A stretch of 12,516 nucleotides of DNA from NCBI GenBank assembly GCA_902610105.1, contig CACLUN010000024.1:1-12516 (forward strand). The letters are read 5' to 3'. The stretch is from an uncultured Bacteroidota bacterium. GTDB lineage: Bacteria > Bacteroidota > Bacteroidia > Flavobacteriales > Flavobacteriaceae. Both the position numbers and the translations under genes were made by a program. Shown here one piece after another: positions 7,812 to 11,178 of the stretch (positions are counted from its first letter, which is position 1; each line of letters begins with the position of its first letter). Below the pieces are notes generated by a model. The model was given only the letters and a program-made list of their open reading frames with translations. It searched no databases and was not told where the DNA came from.

Positions 7812-8915
7812 TTATTCAAAAATTATTTTCTTTATTTCTGTTCTAATGTTATAATCAATCAGTTTTCTATTTTCCATGGTTGGATAAGTCCGATTTGAAA
7901 GAAAAACATATATAATTTGATCTTCTGGGTCAGCCCAAGCATATGTACCTGTAAATCCGGAGTGCCCAAAGCTATCTTTAGATAAACATTCACAAGATAA
8001 ATTTTCTTTATCATATAATTCAGGTTTATCAAATCCTATGCCTCTTCTAACACCTTTATCACAAAAATGACATTTATTGAACTCATCAAAAATTTTTTCA
8101 CCAAAAAATTTTTCATCACCATAATATCCCTTTTGAATATAGAGCTGCATCATCTTTGCAACATCAAGGGAATTTCCAAAAAGACCAGCATGACCTCCTA
8201 TTCCACCTTGCATTGCTGCGCCCATATCATGCACATATCCTCTTAATTCACCTAGTCTAAAATAATCATCAATTTCTGATGGAACTATTTTATTTTGATC
8301 AAATGTTTTATAAGGATTAAAATTTAATGATAACATTCCATTTTTAGAAAAAATGTAATCCTGTATAAGTTTATCCAAAGTTTTACCATATTTATCTTCA
8401 AGATATTTTTTTAACAAGTAGTATGGTATATCACTGTATTTATATTCTTTTACTTCTAGTAATTCAGATTCAATAATTTTATCAAATATTGTATCATTCC
8501 ATAATTGCATAAAAAGGCCTTCTCTCACCTCTATTTCAAAGTCTCTCGTTTGTTTATTTGAATAATAATTATCAAGTTGTTCATTTGTGATACTATCCAA
8601 AGTTTCCTTGTAAAAAGGAATCCAAGGAGTTAATCTGGAGTAGTGAGATAACATCTCTTTTAATCTTATATTCTTTTTTTCATATAAGTTAGTTTTTGGA
8701 AATAATGAGCTCAACGAAGTTTCAAAATTCATTGCTTTCGATTCAATTTCTTTGATAATCAACGGAATTGATACAAGAATTTTTGTAATTGATGCCAAAT
8801 CATAAATATCTTCATTCTCAACAGATATTTTTTTATTGTAAGTGTGGTGACCATATGATTTATTATATATAACACTTCCATTTTTAGCAATTAAAAGTTG
8901 AACTCCTGGGGTCAT
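7812..8915 (-). CDS. Beta-lactamase-fold serine hydrolase, detached C-terminal half of a GH3 fusion
   Basis: This is a class-C-type serine hydrolase (beta-lactamase/esterase family) with its catalytic set intact: LASITK with Ser42 and Lys45, the tyrosine motif KYSD (Tyr160) and the late HSGFTG motif (318-323). The annotated ATG gives 367 aa, but MTPGVQLLIAKNG falls inside the first conserved block rather than before it. Reading upstream in the same frame gives another 34 residues of plausible protein (including FSSIKLKKVDSIVDFAIKNK), back to a stop at 9018-9020, with no ATG, GTG or TTG among them. As it stands it also has no signal peptide. In many Bacteroidota this domain is the C-terminal half of one secreted protein with an N-terminal GH3 domain, and the missing start fits that origin. 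It is produced as a fusion through slippage at 9010-9019, or the gene is broken, or the base count there is wrong. Annotated as a CDS because the domain itself is undamaged. Confidence 0.8.
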   Translation of the reverse strand: MTPGVQLLIAKNGSVIYNKSYGHHTYNKKISVENEDIYDLASITKILVSIPLIIKEIESKAMNFETSLSSLFPKTNLYEKKNIRLKEMLSHYSRLTPWIPFYKETLDSITNEQLDNYYSNKQTRDFEIEVREGLFMQLWNDTIFDKIIESELLEVKEYKYSDIPYYLLKKYLEDKYGKTLDKLIQDYIFSKNGMLSLNFNPYKTFDQNKIVPSEIDDYFRLGELRGYVHDMGAAMQGGIGGHAGLFGNSLDVAKMMQLYIQKGYYGDEKFFGEKIFDEFNKCHFCDKGVRRGIGFDKPELYDKENLSCECLSKDSFGHSGFTGTYAWADPEDQIIYVFLSNRTYPTMENRKLIDYNIRTEIKKIIFE

Positions 8916-9017
8916 CTTATTTTTAATTGCAAAATCAACAATAGAATCTACTTTTTTAAGTTTTATGGAACTAAAACCCTCATTTAAATGGTGCTTAAAG
9001 CTTAAAATCTTTTTTTT
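8916..9017 (-). other. Coding-like linker lacking a start codon
   Basis: Thirty-four codons in frame with the serine hydrolase lie between the stop at 9018-9020 and the ATG at 8915. They read as an ordinary domain linker and first helix, ILSFKHHLNEGFSSIKLKK followed by VDSIVDFAIKNK, leading into the PGVQLLIAKNG block. None is a usual start codon. This is the piece that should join the GH3 protein to the serine hydrolase, and its preservation as protein sequence points to one ancestral reading frame. Confidence 0.7.
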
Positions 9018-9025
9018 TTAAGCTT
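8998..9025 (-). repeat. A10 run inside a perfect inverted repeat at the GH3/hydrolase frame junction
   Basis: On the coding (minus) strand AAGCTTAAAA (9025-9016) is followed by an 8-nt spacer and its exact inverse TTTTAAGCTT (9007-8998). The ten consecutive A (9019-9010) span the end of the first arm and most of the spacer. In the GH3 frame the codons read CTT AAA AAA AAA AGA TTT TAA. Moving back one base, or adding one A, gives CTT AAA AAA AAA AAG ATT TTA and runs on into the serine hydrolase. A_AAA_AAA is a shape known from -1 slippery sites, and A runs of this length are known to cause RNA polymerase slippage and replication errors. Which of these applies is not shown by the sequence. Confidence 0.75.
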
Positions 9026-10696
9026 AATTGAAGAATTTACAGGGATGTCTTTATTAATTGTGACAGGAAGTTTCCCCTTTACATTATTTGCTCCAAAAAT
9101 TGCTTGGGCTGCCTTTTCTTGAAAAACTGGAGAGTTTTGATAAGCAATCAAGATAGATTGAATATCATCTATATTTAAATCAAATATCGAATATGGCTTT
9201 GAAAAAACAACTAATGTTAAATCTGTTAGTTGCTTTAAATCATTAATTATTGAAATCTCTTCATCTGTAAACTTGTATTCACCAAAAGGTGATTTATCAG
9301 ACTTATGTAGCCCTACTATTAGTTTATCATAATTTTTAGAAATTTTAATCAAAGAATCTTTATTGTTTTGATATATATGATCAACCCTTGTGTATTTGTT
9401 CAAATATTTTAAAAAAGTGTTGTATGAATCATCTCCCATATTTACATATCCTATTGATTTTTGATCAAATATTGATAATGGTAAATTTGTGTTTTGATTC
9501 TTCACAAGAGTCATTGACTCCTCAGCTAATCTGTCTAAAAGAGCAAAGTCAATATCCTGATTTAAATCCTCAACTATATTCTCAATTTCAATCGGTTTAA
9601 AATTATTCAATCCTGATTTGTACTTTGCCATTAAATTTTTCTTAACGGCCTTTTCTAAAGTTTTATTAGAAATCTTATTTTTTTGAATAGCCTTTTTCAA
9701 TTCCTTAATACTTTTAGAAACATCAGTTGGCATTAATAGAAGATCATTACCAGCATTCAAAGCACTGACATCCGGATAATCTCCTTTGCTAAAATCAACG
9801 ATGGCTTTCATATCAAGCGCATCAGTAATTACAAGGCCTTTAAATCCTAAGTCATCAATCAATAAGTTATTAATTACTTTATTTGATAATGTAGAAACTT
9901 TATTTTTATCTAGAGAGGGAATATTTAAGTGTGCAGTCATAATACCATCTAATCCATTCTCTATTAACTTTTTAAAAGGATATAATTCAACCTCATCAAT
10001 TCTATCTTTAGAAAAACCAATCGTAGGTAAGGTTAAATGGGAGTCAGTTTCAGTGTCACCATGTCCTGGAAAATGCTTTGCAGCACCCATTATTCCGTGG
10101 TGGTGCATACCTTTTAAATAATTTAATGCTTTATTTGAAACATTATACTTATCCTCACCAAATGATCTAAACCCTATTATTGGATTGGCGGGATTCGTAT
10201 TTATATCAACAACAGGTGCAAAATTTATTTGAACACCAAGTCTTTTTGCATGAAATCCTATTCTTTTACCAACCTGATAGATTAAACTATCATTTTCTAC
10301 AGCACCCAGAGTCATATTATAAGGGAAAGAAAAGGCATCATCAAGACGCATCCCAATACCCCACTCTGCATCCATTGAAATTAGTAATGGAACTTTAGAT
10401 TGTTTTTGAAACTTATTAATTGCCTCAGCCTGGGATTTTATATCACCGAGTGAAAAAATCAAGCCTCCAAGTTTATAATCCTCGATTAATTTTGAAATGT
10501 GTTTAATTTCATCTTCACCATATTTAGTTGCAACCCATACAGTAATTAGTTGCCCAATTTTTTCTTCTAAATCTAAATTGTTATAAATACTGTCAACCCA
10601 CTTACTTTGTTTGTAATAATCTTTAGATAATAAAGGGTTCTGAGTTTGTCCAATAAAAAAAGTAAAAATCAGCGGAAATAAAAAAAAATTTTTCAT
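9002..10696 (-). CDS. Secreted GH3 glycosidase, NagZ-like (probable beta-N-acetylglucosaminidase)
   Basis: This GH3 hydrolase of about 564 aa probably releases terminal beta-GlcNAc, for example from peptidoglycan fragments. The start is set at the ATG at 10696, because MKNFFLFPLIFTFFIGQ is then a clean signal peptide and the ATG overlaps the upstream stop as ATGA; the longer reading frame from 10741 would bury the signal. KHFPGHGDTETDSH (207-220) carries the Asp/His pair in the loop typical of NagZ-type acid/base catalysis. VITDALDM contains the predicted nucleophile Asp292. LISMDAEWGIGMRL (about 105-118) is also typical. From about residue 400 to the end lies the second alpha/beta domain (GYVNMGDDSYNTFLKYL to GKLPVTI). 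The C-terminus LKKKRF is abrupt and encoded by the A10 run. Homologues commonly continue into a serine-hydrolase domain, which here lies in the -1 frame directly downstream. Confidence 0.88.
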   Translation of the reverse strand: MKNFFLFPLIFTFFIGQTQNPLLSKDYYKQSKWVDSIYNNLDLEEKIGQLITVWVATKYGEDEIKHISKLIEDYKLGGLIFSLGDIKSQAEAINKFQKQSKVPLLISMDAEWGIGMRLDDAFSFPYNMTLGAVENDSLIYQVGKRIGFHAKRLGVQINFAPVVDINTNPANPIIGFRSFGEDKYNVSNKALNYLKGMHHHGIMGAAKHFPGHGDTETDSHLTLPTIGFSKDRIDEVELYPFKKLIENGLDGIMTAHLNIPSLDKNKVSTLSNKVINNLLIDDLGFKGLVITDALDMKAIVDFSKGDYPDVSALNAGNDLLLMPTDVSKSIKELKKAIQKNKISNKTLEKAVKKNLMAKYKSGLNNFKPIEIENIVEDLNQDIDFALLDRLAEESMTLVKNQNTNLPLSIFDQKSIGYVNMGDDSYNTFLKYLNKYTRVDHIYQNNKDSLIKISKNYDKLIVGLHKSDKSPFGEYKFTDEEISIINDLKQLTDLTLVVFSKPYSIFDLNIDDIQSILIAYQNSPVFQEKAAQAIFGANNVKGKLPVTINKDIPVNSSIKLKKKRF

Positions 10697-11178
10697 TTTA
10701 TTAACTGTTTGTGCCAGCTTTTTGACAATGGAATCTCCCAATTGTTAACCAAATCAGACTTTAAGTTAATCAAGTTATTAAAAACGATTGTAGTATTGTC
10801 AATTTTTTTTTTCAATATTTTATTTTTAAAGTCTTTAAGCTTTGCTACAAAAATTTCATTATTTATCTTATATGAAATATCATGCCGATCTAATAATCTT
10901 GCTCCAAACTCATTTTCTAGGTTTTTAATAAAATGTACCATTTTATCTATAGAGCATCCAGAGGCTAAGGATATATTTTGATCCAAGGCGATTATGATGA
11001 AGTAGCAATATTTAATTTTTGATGCAACCTTTAATTCTTCTCCATGTGATGTCCATGAATTTAAGAAATCTTTAATCCTGTTTTCAATTATTTTAATTTG
11101 ATTAATAGAAAAAGACTTATTTGATTGATATATCCAAATTCTTGCATCATCACTTATTTCATCAAAGCTAACAATCAT
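10693..11178 (-). CDS. Conserved 161-aa protein of unknown function (often mislabelled ABC transporter ATPase)
   Basis: This small soluble protein belongs to a family I recall as widespread in Bacteroidota under the label 'ABC transporter ATPase'. No Walker A, Walker B or ABC signature is present, so that name has no support here. Visible marks are ARIWIYQSNKSF (12-23), WTSHGEELK (42-50), the cysteine motif ASGCSIDKMVHFI (72-84), FGARLLDRHDISYK (91-104) and a C-terminal VFNNLINLK...SWHKQ. Cys75 within SGCSID is a candidate functional residue. There is no signal peptide or membrane segment. It starts in an ATGA overlap with the Fe-S protein gene upstream and ends in an ATGA overlap with the GH3 gene downstream, so translational coupling on both sides is likely. 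An A10 run (10812-10803) lies in its coding sequence, and here the frame continues intact. The function is unknown. Confidence 0.85.
   Translation of the reverse strand: MIVSFDEISDDARIWIYQSNKSFSINQIKIIENRIKDFLNSWTSHGEELKVASKIKYCYFIIIALDQNISLASGCSIDKMVHFIKNLENEFGARLLDRHDISYKINNEIFVAKLKDFKNKILKKKIDNTTIVFNNLINLKSDLVNNWEIPLSKSWHKQLIK
10803..10812 (-). repeat. Second A10 run, in frame, in the 161-aa gene
   Basis: The coding strand reads TTG AAA AAA AAA ATT (LKKKI). The family-typical C-terminus continues in the same frame, so the base count appears right at this place. It serves as an internal comparison for the frame-breaking A10 at 9010-9019. Confidence 0.7.

Follow-up and report, generated by a model that had tools for sequence, protein, structure and literature searches.

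A contig of an uncultured Flavobacteriaceae bacterium raises the question of why two protein-like enzyme frames should be parted by a single base at a run of ten adenines. The window, by which we mean the whole stretch of 12,516 nucleotides analysed here (G+C 32%), carries on its minus strand a GH3 glycosidase gene followed by a serine hydrolase frame, and an earlier note on the same DNA left three readings of the boundary: recoding, recent inactivation, or a homopolymer miscount. We regard the locus as a real and conserved recoding candidate, in which a mechanism of known type would act on a new gene and the slip site would lie at one of four alternative positions in different species. The features of the locus are:

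9002..10696, minus strand: GH3 (NagZ-type beta-N-acetylhexosaminidase) gene, 564 aa from the ATG at 10696, ending in LKKKRF and a stop
9002..9004, minus strand: TAA that ends the GH3 frame, two codons past KKK
9010..9019, minus strand: A10 run, the proposed slippage site, from the sequence and from same-place runs in relatives
9018..9020, minus strand: TAA at the border of the A10, closing the hydrolase frame there, from the sequence
7812..9017, minus strand: open frame of a PF00144 serine hydrolase (PBP4B-like), 401 aa, with its stop at 7814-7812
8913..8915, minus strand: first ATG, GTG or TTG of the hydrolase frame, an ATG, at the first conserved block

The run appears as T10 on the plus strand at 9010-9019. 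The GH3 frame crosses it as AAG CTT AAA AAA AAA AGA TTT TAA (KLKKKRF and stop), with a slippery A_AAA_AAA heptamer in phase within the A10, and the hydrolase frame opens at 9017, inside the run and one base back from the GH3 frame; because the TAA at 9018..9020 blocks the hydrolase frame right at the run's border, entry into that frame must lie within the run itself. The layout described in the earlier note is borne out: the GH3 frame ends in LKKKRF at the A10, with its stop (9004-9002) just past the run, the hydrolase frame is protein-like back to the run, and no ATG, GTG or TTG precedes its first conserved block, the first being the ATG at 8915. The joined protein, put there at about 966 aa, comes to ~965 aa, the two frames lying one base apart. 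Unjoined, as had also been argued, the hydrolase would lack both a proper start and a signal peptide; the window sequence offers it no start codon before 8915 and no signal peptide of its own, and a protein begun at that ATG has 367 aa. The N-terminus of the GH3 protein is signal-peptide-like as judged by eye, and an alternative TTG start at 10741 would extend this protein to 579 aa.

A Pfam search places PF00933 (1e-79) and PF01915 (8.6e-8) in the GH3 half and PF00144 in the hydrolase half. The best PDB match of the GH3 half is Bacillus subtilis YbbD/NagZ (3bmx, 7.9e-67), and it contains AKHFPGHGDTETDSH, which we take to be the NagZ signature; the score against the NCBIfam beta-N-acetylhexosaminidase equivalog is 150.6 bits, below the cut-off of 207. 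From its domains and its closeness to a characterised NagZ, the GH3 half is classed as NagZ-type. The hydrolase half has SxxK, YSD and HSG motifs at 636, 754 and 912 (numbering of the in-frame relative L003, used throughout), and the solved structures related to it are distant ones only. We infer an AmiE-like amidase role for this half from the PF00144 match and the motifs, and the gene product is probably one secreted NagZ(GH3)-serine hydrolase, a muropeptide-rescue enzyme. No phage record matched the hydrolase.

Four relatives of the locus were found by scanning genome contigs with the GH3 half (isolates AG-461-P01, AG-901-C03, AG-325-E07 and AH-287-A05, all uncultured Bacteroidetes). Protein identities to the window are 96% for L001, 94% for L002, 76% for L003 and 72% for L004. 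The earlier note had called for the site to be compared in close relatives, and there the A10 and its phase are kept: L001, L002 and L004 have an A10 at the same place and the same one-base relation between the frames, with a GH3-frame stop immediately after the run (KKKRF in L001 and L002, KKKDF in L004), and the 564-aa GH3 reading frame recurs in L002 and L004. The window and L004 differ by a dS above 2, yet retain both run and phase. L003 has an A14 at this place, in frame, and reads as a single open frame of 961 aa, and a further locus, L053, has an A9 in the other out-of-frame phase. In the window, L001, L002, L004 and L053, each of the three lysines at the site is encoded by AAA.

Across two sister genera, 37 genomes yielded the gene, which is split in 25 of them and in frame in 12; the window brings the number of split loci to 26. 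Among 23 genomes of the genus of G002, the gene is present in 15 (eight in frame, seven split) and was not seen in the other eight assemblies; the 22 genomes of the genus of G243 comprise 18 split genes, three in frame, and one (G694) in frame in the part seen. Going beyond the earlier note, we find that in some related species the break falls at one of three further A runs within this gene, so that there are four split places, at about 563 (the linker; site 1), 622, 718 and 778 (sites 2, 3 and 4). Separate genes with their own starts and signal peptides, which by the earlier note would have spoken against its reading, did not appear in the 37 genomes, each gene being either fused in frame or split at an A run. 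All 26 splits lie downstream of the GH3 domain and upstream of the HSG motif at 912, so the short product never holds a whole hydrolase. In species split at sites 2, 3 and 4 the downstream piece has 189-350 codons and begins inside the hydrolase domain.

An uninterrupted run of A9 to A17 stands at the break in 25 of the 26 split loci; 21 have A10, and the remainder have A9, A11, A14, A17, or, in L149, A7 followed by T. The phase is nearly constant, 25 of the 26 sharing the -1 relation, with L053 (A9) as the exception. At the split, lysine is encoded by AAA in 75 of 75 cases, counted over 25 related and hence non-independent loci (L149 is omitted, its row having picked another lysine stretch), compared with 72-82% for the other lysine codons of the four site groups. 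L149 lies near the end of contig C122 of G692, and the T that interrupts its site-4 run places a stop inside the run; contig C73 of the same genome carries this region as well.

Long runs are also kept by in-frame relatives. Seven of the 12 have A10 to A14 after the GH3 part (L003 and L044, A14; L045, A12; L145, L016 and L164, A11; L146, A10), and no run of ten or more was seen there in L046-L049 and L015. L145, sister of the site-3 group, combines an A11 at site 3 with an A9 at site 4. A fifth place, near codon 595-601, holds in-frame A10-A11 runs in L016, L146 and L164 (KKKM) and is shared with the outgroups L019, L028 and L111; it might serve as an in-frame slip site.

When the GH3 half was placed on a midpoint-rooted tree of 48 rows (L053 and L165 omitted for their short GH3 parts), the two genera formed one group, set apart from 12 family outgroups with support of 100/100, the outgroup branches being long. 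Scored as five states, one for each site and one for in frame, the loci require eight changes on this tree, with in-frame species branching from within the split ones. More widely, 298 of 299 genomes in a family sample match the fused protein, and 319 of 395 in an order sample match P0111, a site-3 metagenomic protein used as query. All of the matches listed for family and order are one open frame of ~960-1060 aa without inner stops. The in-frame fusion is therefore the norm among them, in agreement with the earlier statement that the architecture is known in Bacteroidota, and is likely the ancestral state of the split genes. Forty of the 299 family genomes, with a small genome or a weak match, were searched again; G243 proved to be split at an A run, and others, such as G154, G116, G169 and G170, gave just pieces or stops.

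Coding sequence beyond the break is under purifying selection. Sixteen pairs were tried and 14 gave values, one of them a comparison with the in-frame L003 and four with a dS above 1.3; dN/dS is 0.05-0.19 downstream of the split versus 0.06-0.12 upstream. For the hydrolase of the window it is 0.119 against L001, 0.116 against L002 and 0.107 against L004. The downstream value exceeds the upstream one in 10 of the 14 pairs, and constraint may be slightly weaker past the split. Such low downstream ratios argue that the out-of-frame hydrolase part is very probably translated and useful.

Long A runs are unevenly placed within the gene. Judged against synonymous shuffles of 35 loci, runs of A10 or longer number none in the GH3 part, where 6.5 are expected, and 36 after it, where 22 are expected; with the partial locus L164, which is not among the 35, the 36 loci have one run in the GH3 part, and L053 and L165 are left out of both counts for the same reason as in the tree. 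Much of the abundance after GH3 is due to lysine-rich stretches in AT-rich DNA, as the expectation of 22 of the 36 indicates; the same composition does not explain the lack of long runs in the GH3 part. Among 85 in-frame outgroup loci there are no such runs in the GH3 part and three after it.

The split is specific to this gene in the parts of genomes scanned. A scan of frame lengths that makes no use of homology was run over 761 kb of G002, 400 kb of G004 and 400 kb of G243 (1.56 Mb), and each genome has one long frame split at A10 or longer, always the NagZ-hydrolase gene; no other gene in these 1.56 Mb is so split. In-phase runs within long frames are not rare: A9 occurs 19, 16 and 13 times in G002, G004 and G243, and A10 or longer two, one and four times. 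Break-like places at A5-A9 are found at A8 (five in G002, two in G004, none in G243) and at A9 (two in G004, none in the others), and by eye the A8 and A9 places shown with their flanks resemble normal gene boundaries. In insect endosymbionts many split genes are rescued throughout the genome; such rescue is rejected here, given the single gene split at A10 or longer in the 1.56 Mb scanned. With run and phase recurring in three further genomes, and no other long-run split in the scan, the split in the window is more than chance.

Metagenomic protein clusters extend these observations. A protein search with the GH3 of the window gave 7392 matches, of which the best 120 were used: 83 are shorter than 850 aa and 37 longer, and 81 of the 83 short proteins end within 12 aa of KKK, at site 1 (12), site 2 (9), site 3 (40) or site 4 (20). 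Within this best 120, all five clusters 93-95% identical to the window end in LKKKRF and five L004-like clusters end in LKKKDF, so that ten of ten clusters of these two kinds are out of frame; 14 clusters of 74-77% identity, among P0005-P0020, are in frame at site 1. The best 120 relatives of P0111 (91-100% identity) comprise 114 proteins of 725 aa, three of 723, two of 726 and one partial; 89 of the 119 informative ones are at 99-100% identity. By type, 117 of the 119 informative ones are of one kind and two of another length, these last (726 aa) having a third C-terminus that we read as a run one A shorter. No in-frame or full-length form was found among the 119, and one close to P0111 should have scored into the best 120. 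Sources among those listed are ena, jgi, ncbi, lgn and tara.

Transcriptional slippage, perhaps joined by ribosomal slipping, probably yields both GH3 alone and a fused protein from this one gene. RNA polymerase would slip on the A10 and produce transcripts of mixed run lengths; those of templated length would give GH3 alone, ending in LKKKRF, and those with the frames in register would give a fused two-enzyme protein carrying the GH3 signal peptide. Ribosomal -1 slipping on the same A10 may contribute. The hydrolase would then be made solely as a minority, fused product; split species would mainly make the short form, and in-frame species the long one. The sequences establish that the runs are conserved, that the phase hardly varies, that selection is purifying past the break and that, in the genome parts scanned, only this gene is affected; that slippage takes place, how often it does so, and that both products are used are what we infer from them. 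RNA polymerase slippage fits best because the runs are long and unbroken, more than one out-of-frame length occurs, no stable RNA fold was found in the 75 nt that follow site 1 in four genomes, relative to shuffles (z 0.16 to 1.12), and in-frame and out-of-frame relatives both carry long runs. Recoding, one of the three readings in the earlier note, thus gains support from the same A10 and phase in relatives together with the purifying selection.

The most direct competitor is programmed -1 ribosomal frameshifting, in which tandem Lys-tRNAs would slip on A_AAA_AAA without any slippage of RNA polymerase. The one-sided phase, -1 in 25 of 26 split loci, fits such slipping as well as it fits insertion of an A, and heptamers of the A_AAA_AAA kind are established sites of slipping (PMC3711429). 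For that process, however, six or seven A would be enough, whereas 25 of the 26 runs have at least nine and are unbroken; the stable downstream fold is missing at site 1 in the four genomes; and a -1 shift cannot join the frames of L053, nor of P0185 and P0190, whose C-termini seem to show the other phase. We consider it unlikely as the sole mechanism. Less probable still is phase variation, by which the A run, through slipped-strand mispairing at the DNA level, would toggle the hydrolase on and off between cells. Length and phase do differ at the same site between related species, as with the A14 of L003 beside its A10 relatives, and the 14 in-frame clusters among P0005-P0020 stand alongside split ones; but uniformity among the relatives of P0111 (0 of 119 in frame) speaks against frequent switching, the ten window-like or L004-like clusters are all out of frame (the window's own kind being five clusters, all LKKKRF), and the slip site moves between lineages.

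Two simpler accounts fare worse. The hydrolase half might be decaying, or might be a separate gene with an internal start, for which the in-frame ATG at 8915 and its 367-aa product are available in the window. Decay, and with it the recent inactivation considered in the earlier note, is made unlikely by the low dN/dS past the break, and the downstream pieces of site-2, -3 and -4 species cannot be whole enzymes because they begin inside the hydrolase domain; we give this pair of possibilities very little weight. A homopolymer miscount, the remaining reading of the earlier note, is very unlikely, to the point of being hardly credible: long runs can be miscounted in assemblies from single cells and metagenomes, but the same run length and phase occur in independent assemblies of several species, out-of-frame proteins come from all five sources listed above, the P0111 relatives are uniform, and elsewhere in these genomes A9-A11 runs lie in phase within long frames.

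Why the slip site should move is a matter on which we are more tentative. With somewhat less than even confidence, we suggest lasting selection for the hydrolase as a minority fused product, under which slip and dosage, not sequence position, would be conserved and the run would have been lost and re-created at at least four places. Against the slippage explanation as such stand the A9-A11 runs of other, in-frame genes and the substitution inside the run of L149. Splitting is not needed everywhere, since 12 of the 37 genomes are in frame, as are the 14 metagenomic clusters at site 1, and a short-to-long ratio that would differ between species weakens the idea of one fixed ratio.

Stand-alone hydrolase paralogues, 36-40% identical to the hydrolase half of L003, are present in several genomes (L013, 1400-2700, minus strand; similar at L012, L014, L054-L056 and L063). 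The one copy read, that of L013, begins with a signal-peptide-like stretch and carries an HTG motif. Such a paralogue could cover the hydrolase function in its genomes, which also counts against the preferred explanation.

Several described systems resemble parts of this arrangement. Citrobacter rodentium tssM1 has an A11 with 20-25% transcriptional slippage and two needed products (PMC4256274); there too the short frame meets an out-of-frame A run shortly before it ends, and the short and full-length products shown for tssM1 are proposed here. That gene serves secretion, whereas the present one is an enzyme fusion found in many species, with four alternative sites. The dnaX genes of Thermus thermophilus (A9, in frame, about 50% slippage; PMC1088944) and of Chlorobi (a run of 10 A; PMC3711429) similarly have an A run late in the gene and short and long products, and our in-frame A10-A14 relatives match the T. 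thermophilus layout; the protein is unrelated, and the out-of-frame state prevails among species of the two genera, which would make the short form the default. Traits shared with realignment genes of the dnaX, mxiE and tssM type are a run of at least nine at the junction (25 of 26, not L149), a conserved phase, and selection on the second frame.

For the enzyme itself, RmNag3 of Rhodothermus marinus has a GH3 domain and a C-terminal beta-lactamase-type domain, acts on acetyl-chitooligosaccharides, and is according to its authors the sole characterised enzyme of that architecture (PMC6987092). Domain order and signal peptide are the same as here; RmNag3 is described as a single protein, and no frame change is mentioned in the available portion of that article. 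NagZ (YbbD) and AmiE (YbbE) of B. subtilis break down muropeptides one after the other (PMC5061867); among solved structures those of YbbD match the GH3 half best, and the genes that are separate in B. subtilis are fused here. The natural reading is of a secreted muropeptide-rescue enzyme whose glycosidase would be made in excess over a putative amidase. The NagZ-hydrolase gene was not found among the titles listed for slippage and frameshifting in flavobacteria, in Bacteroidetes glycosidases, in single amplified genomes or in marine metagenomes (subscription journals and preprints being outside the scope of the search), and the strings 'glycosid' and 'Flavobacteri' are absent from the main text of PMC3711429. 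Slippage is thus an already known mechanism, and the gene with its relocating slip site is new with respect to the literature searched.

Automatic gene calling cuts such genes into seemingly truncated or broken pieces. Should the full-length protein indeed arise by slippage, a single gene would fix the proportion of two cell-wall recycling enzymes in common ocean bacteria, and four split sites side by side with in-frame species form a natural series on what slip sites are selected for.

An inverted repeat, AAGCTTAAAA...TTTTAAGCTT, flanks the run at 8998-9025 (minus strand) of the window; as a conserved element it was rejected, being broken or absent in L001, and it is probably due to chance. 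An AlphaFold model of the native in-frame L003 protein has a mean pLDDT of 66.9 and a pTM of 0.74, a weak prediction from 18 sequences. A second A10, in frame, lies at 10803-10812 (minus strand) of the window in a 161-aa gene without a Pfam match, directly upstream of the GH3 gene; the run there is A10 in the window, A9 in L002 and A7 in L004, and its length is therefore not conserved.
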